A stretch of DNA of 64,000 nucleotides from Nocardioides potassii (GTDB lineage: Bacteria > Actinomycetota > Actinomycetes > Propionibacteriales > Nocardioidaceae), in assembly GCF_021648885.1 (NCBI RefSeq), contig NZ_JAKJHZ010000005.1:930001-994000 (forward strand), in the 5' to 3' direction. The position numbers and the translations under genes are program-made. Under the pieces are notes generated by a model, which had not been told where the DNA came from, made no database searches, and was given only the letters and a program-made list of their open reading frames with translations. Of this stretch, positions 6,643-19,305 are shown one piece after another. Within the stretch, counting starts at the first letter, position 1. The number at the start of each line of letters is the position of its first letter.

Positions 6643-7839
6643 GTGCGCATCCTCCACACGTCCGACTGGCACCTGGGGAGGTCCTTCCACCGTGAGGACC
6701 TCCTGGGCCACCAGGGTGCGTTCATCGACCACCTGATCGACGTCGTGGAGGCCGAGAAGGTCGACGTCGTCGTCGTCTCGGGCGACGTCTACGACAGGGC
6801 GCTCCCGCACGTCGACGCCGTCGCCCTCGCCGACGAGACCTTCGCCCGTCTCGCCGCCTCCCGTGCCCGCGTCGTGGTCAGCAGCGGCAACCATGACAGC
6901 GCCCAGCGGCTCGGGTTCGGCGCGCGCCTGATGGACCACGCCGGCGTCCACGTCCGCACCGACGCCTCGTCGGTCGGCACGCCCGTCGTGCTCAAGGACC
7001 GCCACGGCGACGTGGCCATCCACGCGATCCCCTACCTCGACCCGTCCGCGCTCCTCGACCCCTGGTCGCTGGGCCACCGCAGCCACGAGGCGGCGCTGGC
7101 CGAGGCCATGAGGCGCGTCCGCGCCGACCTCGCGTCCCGCGGTCCGAAGGCGCGTTCCGTGGTGCTCGCCCACGCCTTCGTCGCCGGCGCCGAGCCGTCG
7201 GAGTCCGAGCGGGACATCAGCGTCGGTGGCGTGTCCCGTGTGGCGACCAGCGTCTTCGACGGCATCGACTACACCGCGCTCGGCCACCTCCACGGCTCGC
7301 ACGTCCTCTCCCCCGGCCTGCGCTACTCCGGCTCGCCGTTGGCCTACTCGTTCTCCGAGGCCGACCAGGTCAAGGGGTCGTGGCTGGTCGAGCTCACCGC
7401 CAAGGGCTTCGGCAGCGCGAGCTGGATCGACGCCCCGGTCCCCCGCCGGCTCTCGCGCATCACGGGCAGGCTCGCCGAGCTCCTGAAGGACCCGACCCTC
7501 GCCGACCGCGAGGACGACTGGCTCCAGGTGACCCTCACCGACGTCCCGCGACCGGCCCGCGCGATGGAGCAGCTGCGGCGACGGTTCCCGCACACGCTGG
7601 TGCTGCAGTTCCCGCCGCCCGCCGCGGACCCGAAGGCACCGCCGCGTCCGGCCTCGGGCACGAGCGACCACGCGATCGCCCTCGACTTCGTCCGCCACGT
7701 GCGCGGCAGCAAGGCCACCAAGGCCGAGGCCGCGCTGCTCCAGGAGGCCGTCGACGGCTGCTGCCACGACCCCGACCAGGACGTGCTGATCGGCGTCGCC
7801 GAGAAGGCCGCAACAGTCGAGGCGGGTGGGGCCGGGTGA
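6643..7839 (+). CDS. sbcD: Exonuclease SbcCD, D subunit (Mre11-type nuclease)
   Basis: Metallophosphoesterase subunit of the SbcCD complex, which opens DNA hairpins and trims DNA ends. The five phosphoesterase motifs are all readable in 398 residues: DWHLGRSFH, VVSGDVYDR, SSGNHDSAQ, LAHAFVAGA and ALGHLHGSH, which bind the two manganese ions. The C-terminal third is the capping domain that contacts SbcC. The GTG start has TACGGT (6631-6636) 6 nt upstream and no ribosome binding site. The stop overlaps the GTG of sbcC (GTGA), so the subunits are translationally coupled. Confidence 0.96.
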   Translation: MRILHTSDWHLGRSFHREDLLGHQGAFIDHLIDVVEAEKVDVVVVSGDVYDRALPHVDAVALADETFARLAASRARVVVSSGNHDSAQRLGFGARLMDHAGVHVRTDASSVGTPVVLKDRHGDVAIHAIPYLDPSALLDPWSLGHRSHEAALAEAMRRVRADLASRGPKARSVVLAHAFVAGAEPSESERDISVGGVSRVATSVFDGIDYTALGHLHGSHVLSPGLRYSGSPLAYSFSEADQVKGSWLVELTAKGFGSASWIDAPVPRRLSRITGRLAELLKDPTLADREDDWLQVTLTDVPRPARAMEQLRRRFPHTLVLQFPPPAADPKAPPRPASGTSDHAIALDFVRHVRGSKATKAEAALLQEAVDGCCHDPDQDVLIGVAEKAATVEAGGAG

Positions 7840-10832
7840 GGCTGCACCACCTCGAGGTCACCGCCTTCGGTCCTTTCGCCGGGACCACCACCGTCGACTT
7901 CGACGCGCTCTCCGACGCCGGCCTGTTCCTGCTGAGCGGGCCGACCGGAGCGGGCAAGTCGAGCGTGCTCGACGCGGTCTGCTTCGCCCTCTACGGCGAC
8001 GTGCCGGGCGACCGCGCCGCCGCCAAGCGGCTCCGGTCCGACCACGCCGCCGACGACGTCGTGCCGCGCGTGGTGCTGGAGGCCACCCTGTCCGGGAGGC
8101 GCTTCCGGATCGACCGCTCGCCCGCCTGGACGCGCGCGAAGAAGCGGGGGTCCGGCACGACCACCGAGCAGGCCCGGGTCGTCATCTCCGAGCGGCGTGC
8201 CGGGACTGGTGACGGGGCAGGCGACGACGCGGAGTGGACCCCGCTCAGCACCAGGCTGGACGAGACCGGCCACCTGGTCACCCGCCTGGTCGGCATGACG
8301 CTCCCGCAGTTCTGCCAGGTCGCGATGCTGCCGCAGGGCCGCTTCCAGGCCTTCCTCCGAGCGCGCTCGGAGGAGCGGCACGACCTGCTCCAGCAGGTCT
8401 TCCAGACCGGCCGCTTCGACGACATCGAGCGGTGGCTGCGTGACCGCCGCGTCGAGCTCCGTCGTACGTCGCAGCAGCACGAGGCGGTCGTCGCCGACCT
8501 CGTGAGCCGGGTGAGCGAGGTCGCCGGAAGCGCTGCGCCCGACGGATGGACCGGGGACGCAGACGGGCTGCGCGCGTGGATGGGCGAGCTCACCACGTCT
8601 GCGGTCAGCGCCTCGGTCGCCCAGACCCTCCTCGTCGACGCCGCCTCCGCGGCCGAGGTCGCGGCCTCGGAGGAGTCCGCGGCCGGCATCGAGCTCGCCG
8701 GACGGCGGTCCACCTACGCTGCCGCCAGACGCGCCCGCGCCGGGCTCGACGCCGCTCAGGTCGAGCACGAGACCCGTCTGGACCGCGTCACCCAGGCGCA
8801 GCGCGCGGCTGGCGTACGCCCCCTCCACGAGCTCGCGGTCAGTGCCCGCGCGGAGGTGCGCCAGCTCGACCAGCTGAGCCGCGCCGCGCGCGACCGGTTG
8901 GCCGAGATGCTCGGCGTGACCCCGCTCGACGACCAGGAGATCGCCGAGCACCAACGCGCCGCCACCAGCACGCTCACCGAGATCGCGCGGGTGCGTCCCT
9001 TCCGGAGGCAGGCCTCCGACCTCGAGCGCCAGCTCGGCCGGCTGACCCGCGCGCGCGACGAGGCCGGCACCGAGCTCCTCCGCGTGCAGACGCGCGCGGA
9101 GGAGGTCCCGCAGGTGCTGGCTGCCCTCGAGCCCCGTCTGCAGGCGGCGCGCGAGTCCAAGGCGCTCGCCGAGGCGCTCACCGCCGATCTCGAGGTGCTG
9201 CGCTCGCGCACGCGCGCGGCCCGCACCGCGGAGTCGCTCACCACCCAGCTGCGAGGTGCGGAGCAGGCTCTCGCCGAGGCGACGCAGGCCCGACTGCTGG
9301 CGCGCGAGGCGCTGGTCGAGATCCGTGAGCAGCGACTCGACGGGATGGCGGCCGAGATCGCGGGCAAGCTCGCCGTCGGCGCCGACTGCCCGGTCTGCGG
9401 CTCGACCGACCACCCCCACCCGGCCAAGGCCGCTCCCGGCGCCCCCGACGAGGCGACCGAGCGCGAGGCGCGACGCGAGGTCGACGACCTCGAGGTGGTG
9501 GTCGAGGCACACGCCCAGCAGGTCCGCGGGATCGAGGCGCAGCGAGCGGCCGCGCTCGCCGAGTCCGGGGACTCCGTGGAGCACCTGCTCGTCGAGGAGG
9601 AGGCCACCCTGGCCAACCTCGAGCGCGCCCGCAGCGAGGCCTCCACGGTGGAGGCCTGGGTGGCCCGCGTGGAGGCGCTCACCTCCGAGCGCGACGCGCT
9701 GGCGCAGGAGCAGGCGGCGTTGAGCGCCACCACGACCCGCCTCGACACCGAGATCGCGGTGCTGGTCGCGAAGATCGAGGGGCTGCTCGAGCAGGTGGGG
9801 GCCGTCGTCCCGGACGCGGCGGACCTCGACGACCTCACCGCACACCTGCAGGAGGTCGAGCAGCTTGCCCGGGACTGCCTCGCCCAGACCGCCGAGCTGG
9901 GCCGCGCCCGCGCCACCGCCGCCAGCACCCAGGAGGCCGCCGACAGCGTCGCGGCAGCGGCCGGCTTCGACTCCTCCGCCTGGGCCGCCGCGGCTTGGCT
10001 CACCGACGCCGAGATCGCCGACCTCCAGCAGCAGATCGACCGTCACGAGCGCGAGGCGGCGCGCGTCGACGACCTGCTCGCCGATCAGCAGCTGGTCGAG
10101 TCCGCCGCGAGCGACCCGCCCGACCTCGAGGCCCTCGCTCAAGCGCACCACCGTGCCAAGGAGCACGCGGCGCAGGCCCGCGAGACCGACATGCGGCTGC
10201 GAGACCGGGGCCGTCGCCTGCGCGGGCTGTCCGACGAGATGGACGACGCCCTGTCCGCCTGGGCGCCGGTGCGCGCCGAGCTCGACCTCACGGCCGACCT
10301 GGCTGCCCTCGTCGAGGGCAAGCACGCCGACAACCGGTTCCAGATGCGTCTGTCCGCCTACGTCCTGGCCCACCGGCTGGGCCAGGTGGTCGACGCCGCC
10401 AACCTCCGGCTCGCGACCATGAGCGGCCAGCGCTACTCGCTCGTGCACACCGGTCAGCGCGGCGCCGGCGAGACCCGCGGCGGTCTCAGCCTGCTGGTGC
10501 GCGACGACTGGACCGGCGACTCACGGGATCCCGCGACCCTGTCGGGCGGCGAGACGTTCGTGGTGTCCCTGGCGCTCGCGCTGGGCCTCGCCGACGTGAT
10601 CACCGACGAGGCCGGCGGCACCGACCTCGACACGCTGTTCGTCGACGAGGGCTTCGGCTCCCTCGACTCCGAGACCCTCGAGGACGTGATGGACACCCTC
10701 GACACGCTGCGCGACGGCGGCCGGGTCGTGGGCGTGGTCAGCCACGTGCCCGAGCTCCAGACCCGCATCCCGACGCAGCTGCGCGTGCACCGCAGCCGCA
10801 ACGGCAGCCACACCTCGCTCAGCCTCGGCTAG
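7836..10832 (+). CDS. sbcC: Exonuclease SbcCD, C subunit (Rad50-type ATPase)
   Basis: SMC/Rad50-like ATPase of 998 residues that drives SbcD. Walker A GPTGAGKSS is at about residue 35. Two long Ala/Glu/Arg-rich coiled-coil arms flank the zinc hook CPVC at about residue 518, where two molecules dimerise. The ABC signature LSGGETFVVSLALALG is near residue 902 and Walker B (DTLFVDEGFGSLD) near 935. The GTG start at 7836 is inside the sbcD stop; the frame continues open upstream only because of codon bias. The first residues, VRLHHLEVTAFGPF, match the family N-terminus, which supports this start. Confidence 0.96.
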   Translation: MRLHHLEVTAFGPFAGTTTVDFDALSDAGLFLLSGPTGAGKSSVLDAVCFALYGDVPGDRAAAKRLRSDHAADDVVPRVVLEATLSGRRFRIDRSPAWTRAKKRGSGTTTEQARVVISERRAGTGDGAGDDAEWTPLSTRLDETGHLVTRLVGMTLPQFCQVAMLPQGRFQAFLRARSEERHDLLQQVFQTGRFDDIERWLRDRRVELRRTSQQHEAVVADLVSRVSEVAGSAAPDGWTGDADGLRAWMGELTTSAVSASVAQTLLVDAASAAEVAASEESAAGIELAGRRSTYAAARRARAGLDAAQVEHETRLDRVTQAQRAAGVRPLHELAVSARAEVRQLDQLSRAARDRLAEMLGVTPLDDQEIAEHQRAATSTLTEIARVRPFRRQASDLERQLGRLTRARDEAGTELLRVQTRAEEVPQVLAALEPRLQAARESKALAEALTADLEVLRSRTRAARTAESLTTQLRGAEQALAEATQARLLAREALVEIREQRLDGMAAEIAGKLAVGADCPVCGSTDHPHPAKAAPGAPDEATEREARREVDDLEVVVEAHAQQVRGIEAQRAAALAESGDSVEHLLVEEEATLANLERARSEASTVEAWVARVEALTSERDALAQEQAALSATTTRLDTEIAVLVAKIEGLLEQVGAVVPDAADLDDLTAHLQEVEQLARDCLAQTAELGRARATAASTQEAADSVAAAAGFDSSAWAAAAWLTDAEIADLQQQIDRHEREAARVDDLLADQQLVESAASDPPDLEALAQAHHRAKEHAAQARETDMRLRDRGRRLRGLSDEMDDALSAWAPVRAELDLTADLAALVEGKHADNRFQMRLSAYVLAHRLGQVVDAANLRLATMSGQRYSLVHTGQRGAGETRGGLSLLVRDDWTGDSRDPATLSGGETFVVSLALALGLADVITDEAGGTDLDTLFVDEGFGSLDSETLEDVMDTLDTLRDGGRVVGVVSHVPELQTRIPTQLRVHRSRNGSHTSLSLG

Positions 10833-13781: not shown

Positions 13782-14063
13782 TCAGGTGAGGCGCTGGACG
13801 CGCTGGCGGTGCTGGGACTTGTTGTCGCCGTCGATGTCGGAGTCGCGGGTGCGGGAGATGTGGTCGACCTTCTCCTGGCTGCCCCGGACGGGCTGGGCGG
13901 CGATGAGGGTGTCGCGCTCGTAGGCGTGGGACTTGTCGGTGTTGCGGTAGTAGCGGTAGAGCGCCCAGTAGGTCGCCGCACCGCCCGCGGGACCGGCCGC
14001 GAGGATCCACGCAGGCACGCCGTCGCTCGCCATCACCACCACGTGGGCCAGGTCGACGATCAT
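13782..14063 (-). CDS. Small membrane protein (93 residues) of the SPFH/zinc-ribbon operon
   Basis: Translation begins MIVDLAHVVVMASDGVPAWI and has one clear hydrophobic segment (about residues 15-37, WILAAGPAGGAATYWALY) followed by a charged cytoplasmic tail rich in Asp, Arg and Gln. The ATG overlaps the stop of the upstream zinc-ribbon gene (ATGA), so the two are translated together. Its place as third gene after an SPFH gene and a zinc-ribbon membrane gene parallels YdjH in the Bacillus ydjGHI set; sequence similarity to YdjH cannot be judged by eye. It ends 12 nt from the convergent pmbA gene. Confidence 0.75.
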   Translation of the reverse strand: MIVDLAHVVVMASDGVPAWILAAGPAGGAATYWALYRYYRNTDKSHAYERDTLIAAQPVRGSQEKVDHISRTRDSDIDGDNKSQHRQRVQRLT

Positions 14064-15355
14064 GACGTCGCCACCAGGAGCCAGCCGGCGATGCCCTCGA
14101 GGAACGTGCCGACCGTGAAGGCCGCCGCGAGCAGCCGCCACTGCGAGACGGGGACGCTGCCCATGGTCTCCCCCGTCCGGGCGTTGACCGCGATGTAGTG
14201 CAGCATCCTGGTGTTCTCCTGGTAGTAGGAGTAGAGCCACACCGGCAGGTACATCGAGACCCACCGCGACCCGCCCACGTCCACCTTCTCGGCCTCCCAG
14301 CGCACGCCGCGGTCGAACTGCCCCAGCGAGCCCTCGACCTGTGAGCGCCCGATCGAGAGCAGCTGGTCCTGCAGCACCGGCTCGAGGTCCGCGACGTCGA
14401 GGTCGCGCTTCTCGCTGGTGAAGCCGACGAGGTAGCTGGAGTTCCACTGGACGGCGTTCTTGGTGTCGAACGGCAGCACCGTGTTGACGATGTTGTTGGT
14501 CGTCGAGCCGTCGAAGTTCGCCCGGTCGGCCGCGCCCTCGACCGTCAGGTCGTCGACGGTGAAGGCGACCGACCGGTCGACGCGGTAGACGTCGGCGGCG
14601 TAGTAGGTGGTCGAGCTGTCCCCGTGCTTCTCGGTCCAGCGGCGGGTCTGCACCTCCCCCTGGCCGACGTACGACGCCTCGGCGCTCGCGTCGATGACGA
14701 GGTAGGGCAGGTAGACGCCGAGGACGTTGTCCGGGACGAACTCCTTCTTGAAGCGCGGGTGCGCGAACAACCGCCGCTTGGAGGCGAACTCGCGGATCTT
14801 CTCGACCGCCTCCGCGTGGGTCAGCCGGAACGGCAGCACCGCGTCGGGCACCGCGCCGTTGGGCGTGCGCTGGTTGACGTTGAGCGTGTGGCGGCACCAG
14901 TGGCACCGCGCGTTCATCGCGTGCGCGGTGTCCACGACGACGTCGGCACCGCAACCGGTGCAGGTCATGGTGATCACGTCCTCGTCGGACGAGATCTCCC
15001 CGGCTCCCCCGGCGATGACCGTCCCCTCGAGCTGGTCGATGCCGACCCCGAGGCCGAACTCCTCCTCGACCCGCGCCTCGGACAACTCGTGGCGGCAGAA
15101 CAGGCAGATCAGCCGGCCGGTCGAGGCGCGCTGGCGCACGTCGGTCGACCCGCACTTGGGGCACCGGTTGACGCCGTCGGCCAACGACTCGTTGACCATC
15201 TCGATGCTCGGGCCGGGCTCGGGCTCGGCGCGAGCAGCCGCCAGCTCCTCCTCGAGCGAGAGCGGTGGCCCGTCGAAGACCGGGGCGTCCGGGTCGCGCG
15301 GAGGCGGGTCGGACGGCGACCCCGGGGACGACACGTCGGACGGCTCAGAGGCCAA
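14060..15355 (-). CDS. Double zinc-ribbon membrane protein (TFIIB-type zinc ribbon)
   Basis: Protein of 431 residues. A Pro/Glu-rich first 60 residues precede two zinc ribbons: cysteines 65, 68, 84 and 87 (RCPKCGSTD ... RLICLFCRHEL) and cysteines 132, 135, 151 and 154 (TCTGCGADV ... ARCHWCRHTL). A mainly beta middle region ends in YLPVWLYSYY and YIAVNARTGETMGSVP, a strand pair seen in zinc-ribbon membrane proteins of the YdjG type. A single hydrophobic helix follows (LLAAAFTVGTFLEGIAGWLL) at the C-terminus. It overlaps the SPFH gene upstream by 11 nt and the small membrane gene downstream by 4 nt. Likely role: membrane anchor or adaptor for the SPFH protein; this is inferred from context. Confidence 0.82.
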   Translation of the reverse strand: MASEPSDVSSPGSPSDPPPRDPDAPVFDGPPLSLEEELAAARAEPEPGPSIEMVNESLADGVNRCPKCGSTDVRQRASTGRLICLFCRHELSEARVEEEFGLGVGIDQLEGTVIAGGAGEISSDEDVITMTCTGCGADVVVDTAHAMNARCHWCRHTLNVNQRTPNGAVPDAVLPFRLTHAEAVEKIREFASKRRLFAHPRFKKEFVPDNVLGVYLPYLVIDASAEASYVGQGEVQTRRWTEKHGDSSTTYYAADVYRVDRSVAFTVDDLTVEGAADRANFDGSTTNNIVNTVLPFDTKNAVQWNSSYLVGFTSEKRDLDVADLEPVLQDQLLSIGRSQVEGSLGQFDRGVRWEAEKVDVGGSRWVSMYLPVWLYSYYQENTRMLHYIAVNARTGETMGSVPVSQWRLLAAAFTVGTFLEGIAGWLLVATS

Positions 15356-16541
15356 GAGCCTTGGCCTTCGCCGCGTCGTAGTCCTCCTGCGTGATGAGAC
15401 CGCCGTCGAGCATGTCCTTGGCGCGCTTGAGCACGGCGACCGGGTCCTCGGCGGCGGGCTCGGCCGGAGTGGCGGGAGCAGCCGGCGCCGCAGCAGGTGC
15501 GGCCGGCGCGGGTTGGCTGGTCGGCTGCTGGAGCCCGCCGAGCCCCATCCCGCCCGTGGCCATGCCCATCCCGATCAGGCCGCCCGGTCCGGCGTTCTCC
15601 CCGGCCGCCTCGATGCCGGCCGCGACCGACGCCTGCAGGTTGGAGTTGCCGCGCGAGCCGGACAGGGCGTCGGCGCGCTGGACGTTCTTGAGCAGCTCGC
15701 GGGTGTTCTCGTCGTACTCGATCGAGATGATCGCGGTCTTGACGATCTCCAGGCCGCGGTCGGTGCGCCACCGGTAGTTCTCCTCGACCGCCGCGGAGAG
15801 CGACTGCGCGAACCCGATGGAGTCCTGCTGCAGCCGCGCTATCCGGTTCCCCTTGGCGGGGTCGTTGGTGTACATCGAGAACGCGGGCGCGAGCGAGCCG
15901 ACGACCTCGTTGAAGAGCTGCTCGCCGGCCGGGTTGTCGATGTCGGTGAAGTCGAAGACGCCTCCCCCGGTGATCACGTCGGCGGACACGAAGTTGCGGA
16001 TGAAGGTCAGCGGGTCGGTGATCTTCAGGGTGTACGTGCCGCGGGTGATGGCACCGACCTGGGTGTTGAGGAAGGCGTCGTCCCAGTAGATCTCGGACTG
16101 CGTGCCGAACTTGTTGTTGGGCAGCTCCTTCAGCGTCACGAAGACCGCGGTCTGCTGGCTGCTCGGTCGGCCACCGAACTTGAAGCGCTCCCAGCTCTGC
16201 TTGATCAGCGAGTCGACCAGGCCGCCACCGGAGAAGACCGACTGCGAAGCGGTCTCGTCGGAGTCCCACACGTAGCCGCCGGGCTGGGCGGCGAAGCCGG
16301 TGAACGCGCCGTCCTGCAGCAGGACCAGGCCGTAGCCCTCGGGCACCACGATCTTGGAGCCGTTGGTGATGACCCCGTCGGAGGCGCCGGCGTTGGCGCC
16401 CCGGCCCTGGTTCTGGTCGCGGCGCACAGCGGGGAAGACCGCTGCGGTGGCGGGCAGCCCGTCGGGCACCGTGTAGAAGTCGAGCCACTGGTCGGCCAGC
16501 GTGCCGCCGATCGCACCGCTCACTGCCTGGAAGAGTCCCAT
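15345..16541 (-). CDS. SPFH domain protein with C-terminal SHOCT domain (YdjI / virion-core-like)
   Basis: Protein of 398 residues. It starts MGLFQAVSGAIGGTLADQWL and continues with a stomatin/prohibitin/flotillin-like core of the COG4260 (YdjI) type to about residue 290. Characteristic stretches are IVVPEGYGLVLLQDGAF, PLTFIRNFV and GLEIVKTAIISIEYDEN. An Ala/Pro linker (about 335-365) leads to a SHOCT domain in the last 33 residues (LKRAKDMLDGGLITQEDYDA), a short C-terminal oligomerisation/targeting module. SPFH proteins form membrane scaffolds; having no transmembrane helix itself, this one probably relies on the two membrane proteins encoded next. It leads the minus-strand operon. Confidence 0.88.
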   Translation of the reverse strand: MGLFQAVSGAIGGTLADQWLDFYTVPDGLPATAAVFPAVRRDQNQGRGANAGASDGVITNGSKIVVPEGYGLVLLQDGAFTGFAAQPGGYVWDSDETASQSVFSGGGLVDSLIKQSWERFKFGGRPSSQQTAVFVTLKELPNNKFGTQSEIYWDDAFLNTQVGAITRGTYTLKITDPLTFIRNFVSADVITGGGVFDFTDIDNPAGEQLFNEVVGSLAPAFSMYTNDPAKGNRIARLQQDSIGFAQSLSAAVEENYRWRTDRGLEIVKTAIISIEYDENTRELLKNVQRADALSGSRGNSNLQASVAAGIEAAGENAGPGGLIGMGMATGGMGLGGLQQPTSQPAPAAPAAAPAAPATPAEPAAEDPVAVLKRAKDMLDGGLITQEDYDAAKAKALGL

Positions 16542-16639
16542 GCCGTCCGTCCCTCAAACGTCCCGTGCGGGTGCCCTGCCGCCCCCGACCGCCGCCACAC
16601 TAGCGCTCGTCGCGATGTCCGGGCAGGTGCTTCGCGACC

Positions 16640-18015: not shown

Positions 18016-19305
18016 CTAGCGCGGGTGCCCGCCGGGGATGTCGACGTAGGGGTCGTAGGGCGTGCGCGTGTAGACGAACGTCGCGCACTCGAGGTGGCTG
18101 ATCGACCCGCTCGAGCGCCGTACGACGTCGAGCGTCTCGCCGCGGTGGTAGCCCATCACGCCCGTCAGGACGCCCTCCCCGGTGAGCTCGAACCGCTCCC
18201 ACAGCAGCCCGCCGCGGGCCATCTGCCGCAGCTCCAGCCCCTGGTTGTGCCAGCGCATCTCGTAGGCCGTGTTGCCCCAGAACCACACGCCCGGGACGCC
18301 GATCACCTCGCTCGGCAGCGCGGTGGTCGGACGCCACGGTGCCGGCCGCTCGTCGGAGGCGTCCGGGTCGCCCTCGATGAGCGAGATCGCGAGCTCCCTG
18401 GGCGAGATGCCGGTCGTCGCGTTGGTGAGCACCACCGACCCGATGCCGCTGTCCGGGTCGACCTGCAGCGACGCCATGAAGCCGGGCATCGAGCCGTCGT
18501 GGCCGACGAGGCGGCCGCCGGGGTGGACGCCCAGCATCAGGCCCAGCCCGTAGGTCGGCGTGACCGGTCGCCCCATCTCCTCCAGCGTCGAGGGCGCGAT
18601 CACCTGCGGGTGCACACCCGCAAGCACCTGGCCCCACGTCACGAGGTCGGCCAGCGTGGACCAGAGCTGGCCCGCCGGCGCCATCGCGCCCGTCTCGGTC
18701 AGCGGCTCGTGCACCCGGATGCCGGTGAAGTGGTCGACGCTCCAGCCGGCCTGCGCACCGGGCCGAGGCAGGTACGACGTCGAGCGCATGCCCAGCGGCC
18801 GGAAGAGCCGGTCGTTGACGAGGTCGCGCCACCGGCCACCGAACCTCCGCGCGACCACCTCGCCGAGCAGGCCGTAGCCCAGGTTGGAGTAGTGGAACCA
18901 CTCCCCCGGCCCGGCCACGCGTCCGGAGCCGTCGTTGGCGGCCACCAGGGTGGCGAAGTCGCTGCCGCGGGTGCGTTCCCACCACTGCCCACGCGGCTCG
19001 CTCTGCATGCCCGAGACGTGTGCGAGCGCGTCGCGCACGGTCACCTCGCCGTAGCCGATCTCGCCGAGGTGGACCGACAGATGGTCATCGAGGTCGAGCA
19101 GCCCCTCGTCACGTGCCTGCATCACCAGGACCGCGGTCATCGTCTTGGTGATCGAGCCGATGCGGTACTGCCCGTCGAGACCCGGCGCGTCACCGGCGCC
19201 GCCGGCCCACACCGCGCCGTAGCGGTCGAAGACGGCGCCGACCACCGACGTCAGCCGGCCGTCGGCCTGCGCGACGTCCAGCAGCCGCTGCCGTTGGTCA
19301 CTCAC
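18016..19305 (-). CDS. Serine hydrolase, class C beta-lactamase / penicillin-binding protein-like
   Basis: Protein of 429 residues. The nucleophile motif SxxK is S51-I-T-K54 in YRIGSITKTMTAV, the YxN motif is in WFHYSNLGYGLLG (about residue 137), and the third motif is HxG-like in LVGHDGSMPGFM. Such enzymes are esterases, D-aminopeptidases or DD-peptidases rather than true resistance enzymes. The last 100 residues form an additional beta domain. No signal peptide is visible. TAGGGT lies 7 nt before the GTG start on this strand, a leaderless arrangement. It is followed closely by the DUF1906 cell-wall gene, so the two may be cotranscribed. Confidence 0.9.
   Translation of the reverse strand: MSDQRQRLLDVAQADGRLTSVVGAVFDRYGAVWAGGAGDAPGLDGQYRIGSITKTMTAVLVMQARDEGLLDLDDHLSVHLGEIGYGEVTVRDALAHVSGMQSEPRGQWWERTRGSDFATLVAANDGSGRVAGPGEWFHYSNLGYGLLGEVVARRFGGRWRDLVNDRLFRPLGMRSTSYLPRPGAQAGWSVDHFTGIRVHEPLTETGAMAPAGQLWSTLADLVTWGQVLAGVHPQVIAPSTLEEMGRPVTPTYGLGLMLGVHPGGRLVGHDGSMPGFMASLQVDPDSGIGSVVLTNATTGISPRELAISLIEGDPDASDERPAPWRPTTALPSEVIGVPGVWFWGNTAYEMRWHNQGLELRQMARGGLLWERFELTGEGVLTGVMGYHRGETLDVVRRSSGSISHLECATFVYTRTPYDPYVDIPGGHPR

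Follow-up and report, generated by a model that had tools for sequence, protein, structure and literature searches.

A conserved operon, probably a lineage-specific form of the YdjGHI scaffold, whose third protein lacks the TPM domain

Three overlapping genes and their surroundings

The operon lies in what we call the window, the whole 64,000-nucleotide stretch of Nocardioides potassii DNA that was analyzed, and it consists of three overlapping minus-strand genes whose coordinates are exactly those claimed in the initial annotation (Table 1). The SPFH and ribbon genes have 11 nt in common, and an ATGA overlap joins the ribbon gene to the small gene. The products, described earlier as an SPFH protein with a SHOCT-like tail, a 431-residue protein with two ribbons and a 93-residue one-helix protein, were likewise confirmed from the sequence. 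Comparison with six close relatives gave dN/dS values of 0.07 to 0.15 for the SPFH protein, 0.13 to 0.34 for the ribbon protein and 0.22 to 0.43 for the small protein; because these are well below 1 for each, all three behave like real genes and are under purifying selection. The stretch 5' of the SPFH gene that holds the candidate hexamer is partly conserved in close relatives, and the TAnnnT motif resembles a housekeeping -10, with no hint of special stress control.

Table 1. Features of the operon (window positions)
Feature	Position	Strand	Remark
TAGTGT, candidate -10 hexamer (TAnnnT)	16597..16602	-	picked by eye
SPFH/Band-7 protein, YdjI homologue by sequence	15345..16541	-	398 aa, ATG start
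Band_7_1 (PF13421) match, residues 58-188	15978..16370	-	Pfam 24.2 bits, cut-off 24
SHOCT-like C-terminal tail, residues 371-396	15354..15431	-	PF09851, 24.6 bits against a cut-off of 27
Double zinc-ribbon, predicted tail-anchored protein, YdjG homologue by sequence	14060..15355	-	431 aa, TTG start
First CxxC..CxxC ribbon (C65, C68, C84, C87)	15095..15163	-	no cysteine varies among 21 sequences, Bacillus YdjG being one
Second CxxC..CxxC ribbon (C132, C135, C151, C154)	14894..14962	-	no cysteine varies among 21 sequences, Bacillus YdjG being one
Hydrophobic helix at the C terminus, approximately residues 405-429, predicted to be the tail anchor	14069..14143	-	read from sequence
Single-helix small protein in the YdjH slot, without TPM domain	13782..14063	-	93 aa
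Small-protein helix predicted to span the membrane, approximately residues 18-36	13956..14012	-	read from sequence; below hydropathy threshold

A peptidoglycan-binding, Rv2525c-like protein is encoded upstream on the same strand; the downstream neighbors are a PmbA/TldD pair on the opposite strand. Farther away, the window holds a plus-strand gene for an SbcC/RAD50-like ATPase (7380-10832) and a beta-lactamase-family gene with a DUF7586 domain (18016-19305). Elsewhere, the genome encodes three further Band_7 proteins and a single TPM protein. Searching the locus against the anti-phage defence profiles of PADLOC returned ribbon-level noise only, with no defence system matched, and a PHROGs search gave no informative match.

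Relationship of the ribbon and SPFH proteins to YdjG and YdjI

According to Ravi et al. (PMC11237479), YdjG combines two zinc ribbons with a YpeB-related, NTF2-like domain and a single transmembrane segment, YdjH belongs to the TPM proteins, and the Band-7 partner, which that paper prints as YdjL, has a zinc ribbon at its C terminus. Bacillus ydjFGHI loci were retrieved with a pattern derived from a published ydjG primer. Judged by sequence comparison, the 431-residue protein is a true YdjG homologue, as had been proposed, because it matches a Bacillus YdjG in phmmer (E=1.6e-20, 70.6 bits) and its eight ribbon cysteines are invariant, along with further positions, in an alignment of 21 members. 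The YdjG-family profile scores 455 bits on the window ribbon gene and the SPFH family profile 423 bits on the window SPFH gene, each profile having been built with the window protein included. Pfam Zn_Ribbon_TF reaches only 19 bits on the ribbon protein (cut-off, 29); to go by the family comparisons, the weak Pfam scores understate the kinship of both proteins to the YdjG and SPFH families.

The alignment of the window SPFH protein with Bacillus YdjI spans the SPFH region, the window protein having extra segments, and together with the family profile and the tree (see below) it identifies the SPFH protein as a YdjI homologue, in line with the initial annotation. Profile searches of the PDB gave ribbon-only and weak stomatin/HflC-type matches. 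AlphaFold models built from few input sequences were of low confidence (mean pLDDT 44 for the SPFH protein and 42 for the ribbon protein). The C-terminal helix of the ribbon protein also appears in its low-confidence model; some close relatives pass the hydropathy threshold for this helix, and the window protein falls below it.

Three forms of the module

Genome searches at class, phylum and order level found matches in 33/296, 33/396 and 77/293 genomes, respectively, with only eight of the 33 matching genomes of the phylum search above 200 bits, and we scanned the neighborhoods of 99 loci. Three forms could be distinguished. Type I, the form in the window, combines an SPFH protein with a SHOCT-type tail, the ribbon protein and the small protein (39 loci, counting six tails that the script pattern missed and that were read as the same segment). 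The SHOCT-like segment is kept across these loci, the three genes stay together with the small gene present in 39/39, and the small gene starts within an ATGA overlap in 32/38. Type II comprises 37 loci with a GYF_2-tailed SPFH protein and the ribbon protein, without a small or TPM protein, and five further loci have GYF_2-like tails; Pfam confirmed the GYF_2 tail in two type II proteins. Type III has an SPFH protein with a zinc-ribbon tail, the ribbon protein and a TPM protein (Pfam-confirmed in one), and the SPFH gene was seen in nine such loci, in one of them on the opposite strand; two further loci carry TPM with no SPFH gene seen. Tail type and third gene co-vary across the 99 loci: a SHOCT tail pairs with the small protein, a zinc-ribbon tail with a TPM protein and a GYF_2 tail with neither. 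The actinobacterial version proposed in the initial annotation is not a general one: among the loci found, two-gene GYF_2 loci are about as numerous, some loci have a genuine TPM YdjH, and the window form is one clade.

Exceptions to this layout are few. Where both genes were seen, the SPFH gene is in nearly all loci the immediate 5' neighbor of the ribbon gene; the order is reversed in L136 (genome G633), and in L136 and L180, both with zinc-ribbon tails, no TPM was found. The small gene does not adjoin the SHOCT-tailed SPFH genes of L199 and L206, the former of which adjoins serine-recombinase-like genes. Five deep-branching loci (L131-L135) have as third gene one that encodes one helix and a longer, helical-looking cytosolic part (166 to 206 aa in total); Pfam assigned no family to the single one that was searched.

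Several loci were of interest in their own right. Within one genus, type I and type II modules (L042 and L046, L051, L052) are each followed by a putative pyrH (UMP kinase, identified by eye), which suggests that the two are alternative forms at one site. Several ribbon-protein matches stand in a row beside a single SPFH gene in L049 (genome G012), suggestive of tandem paralogues. A type I ribbon and small pair on a viral-labelled contig (L198) lies beside an RND-efflux-like gene, again identified by eye; such genes are typical of Gram-negative bacteria, and the type I form may have moved between phyla. Bacterial SPFH operons also occur in several unverified "phage" records (L204-L212), which probably represent host DNA. 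Searches of viral collections with TPM proteins found none.

Phylogeny of the module

The ribbon-protein tree resolves type I as one clade (support 100), grouped with type III and apart from type II (support 99). The SPFH tree places type I with the Enterococcus/Clostridia proteins (97/85), several of which come from TPM-bearing operons, and splits the joint group of types I and III from type II (100/100), although the Bacillus row, on a long branch, falls next to type II. On the simplest reading of these trees, a TPM-bearing third gene would be ancestral within the joint group. The pairing of tail and third gene is striking, yet it reflects few independent events; because type I is a single clade, its inherited SHOCT/small-protein pairing amounts to nearly one event.

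Comparison of the small protein with YdjH

The small protein had been likened to YdjH. It does occupy, with an ATGA overlap, the slot that holds a TPM-domain YdjH in Enterococcus/Clostridia and in some relatives of the same order, and its predicted helix is immediately followed by basic residues on the C-terminal side; it lacks the TPM domain, and the likeness of its tail to that of YdjH is only suggestive. Pfam gave neither a family nor a TPM match, hhalign of all 34 small proteins as a full-family profile detected no similarity to YdjH (probability 1.3-4%), and an in-house profile-profile score against YdjH tails gave no match. The missing match is weak evidence, because even the YdjH of Bacillus reaches no more than 15.2 against the Firmicutes TPM tails used below.

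When helix and tail were taken together, basal small proteins scored 30.3 in hhalign over 54 columns against Firmicutes TPM C-termini, and 31.9 in another such comparison, both exploratory values since the basal subset was picked after the full-family test had failed. None of 200 full shuffles (mean 12.1) and none of 200 tail-only shuffles that kept the helix (mean 19.4, maximum 28.2) scored as high as 30.3. As controls, four unrelated single-helix families reached 11.6 to 25.0 against the same tails and true actinobacterial TPM C-termini 49.9. The tail columns alone did not beat shuffles (34/200 as high). When a profile of three Firmicutes TPM tails was run over 7883 ORFs, seven basal small proteins ranked 2-12, interleaved with true TPM proteins. 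These comparisons make the small protein at most a shortened YdjH, or else a replacement in its slot, and on balance it probably arose as a truncated YdjH.

Proposed function of the module and the alternatives

Starting from the genes, their homologies, their conservation and the observed pairing of tail and third gene, we consider it rather likely that the operon encodes the YdjI-YdjG(-YdjH) scaffold in a lineage-specific form, with an SPFH oligomer that would be recruited by two single-pass proteins and with no external sensor domain involved. By its fold class, the SPFH protein would form oligomers on the cytoplasmic side of the membrane. The tail-anchored YdjG homologue, with its two zinc ribbons and large domain predicted to be cytoplasmic, would hold it there, as may the small protein, which has a basic, probably cytosolic tail and no extracytoplasmic TPM domain; homology suggests this anchoring role for the ribbon protein and gene position for the small one. 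Without a TPM domain, sensing, if any, would come from the membrane or cytosol. The SHOCT tail, which occurs together with the small protein in the loci surveyed, probably serves as the docking element. The module would probably stabilize or organize the membrane under envelope stress and might recruit PspA encoded elsewhere in the genome. Recruitment of the scaffold by membrane proteins has been demonstrated in Bacillus only (PMC8581546), from which we infer it here by analogy.

Alternatively, the small protein could be a single-pass adaptor with no relation to YdjH that took over its place in the operon, the rest of the module working as just described. The absence of a TPM domain and the full-family profile comparison, which gave homology no support, would fit such an origin, and the slot does accept unrelated proteins, because the deep-branching relatives have a different third gene with a helix and an apparently helical cytosolic part. 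However, the basal members match the Firmicutes TPM helix plus tail above all shuffles and rank among true TPM proteins, and both trees nest type I with TPM-bearing loci, so that we regard an unrelated adaptor as possible, though doubtful. Somewhat more credible, if still short of what we favor, is a module independent of PspA, organizing membrane domains in a flotillin-like manner rather than recruiting PspA. The operon had been called PspA-less, and indeed no PspA homologue lies beside the actinobacterial loci checked, the window locus included, nor is pspA annotated in the module neighborhoods of Enterococcus, Comamonas, Tsukamurella and Vibrio; in B. subtilis, moreover, loss of YdjI or of YdjG/YdjH also affects membrane fluidity and cell-wall synthesis (PMC8581546). 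The label does not hold for the genome, however, which encodes one PspA homologue (C5:403219-403905) 540 kb from the operon. In B. subtilis, YdjG and YdjH are required for the membrane foci of YdjI and PspA, YdjH contacts both YdjI and PspA in two-hybrid assays, and YdjI contacts PspA (PMC8581546); the contacts with PspA, like the PspA homologue of this genome, speak against an independent module.

We think it improbable that the ribbon protein is a membrane-anchored DNA- or RNA-binding regulator and the module a signaling device. Its ribbons give weak matches to the TFIIB, RNA polymerase subunit P and S27e types, and Popp et al. considered DNA binding possible for the TF_Zn_Ribbon of YdjG (PMC9239133), but the matches are limited to the ribbon region, zinc ribbons also commonly mediate protein contacts, and no conserved regulator or target gene adjoins the loci. 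A bolder version of the favored scaffold reading, which we offer tentatively and rate below it, treats the SPFH tail (SHOCT, GYF_2 or zinc ribbon) as an interchangeable key to the third membrane partner and the small protein as a TPM-stripped YdjH, in a scaffold that would be independent of PspA and of any external sensor. The scaffold reading itself extends YdjGHI beyond Bacillus as a constant SPFH-YdjG core with a co-varying tail and third protein, yields a testable prediction of which part of the SPFH protein reads its membrane anchor, and points to a natural TPM-less version in which to ask what the TPM domain does. A literature search of partial coverage found no paper on the SHOCT/small-protein arrangement.

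Comparison with known systems

The available excerpt of PMC3581485 reports SHOCT as most often fused to Band_7_1, a pairing resembled by the Band_7_1 match and SHOCT-like tail of the window SPFH protein; the excerpt does not connect such proteins with YdjG or any small partner in the membrane, a difference from the window operon. The actinobacterial type II pairs share with the window an SPFH gene followed by a YdjG homologue and occur in the same genus, but they have a GYF_2 tail, lack a small or TPM protein, and are separate in both trees. The likeness to YdjGHI that had been claimed stands for two of the three proteins, those homologous to YdjI and YdjG, and the gene order differs from that in Bacillus. 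The B. subtilis pspA-ydjGHI operon (ydjFGHI) likewise unites a homologous SPFH protein (YdjI), the double-ribbon YdjG and a further membrane protein, whereas it includes pspA, which the window operon lacks, has a zinc ribbon in place of the SHOCT-like SPFH tail (the tail difference noted initially), encodes a TPM-bearing YdjH where the window protein is TPM-less, and runs G-H-I instead of I-G-third.

That order is found in the SPFH/hypothetical/TPM operon of Enterococcus gallinarum (WP_005472382, WP_003127086, WP_003127085) and in a similar operon on a related gut Clostridia-like contig. As in the window, the third gene of these operons has an ATGA overlap, no pspA adjoins, and the SPFH protein belongs to the subfamily with a long N terminus; they differ in the zinc-ribbon tail of the SPFH protein and the TPM domain of the third protein. 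Set beside these systems, the window holds a real, conserved operon, probably a variant of the YdjGHI scaffold in which a protein without TPM domain takes the place of YdjH.
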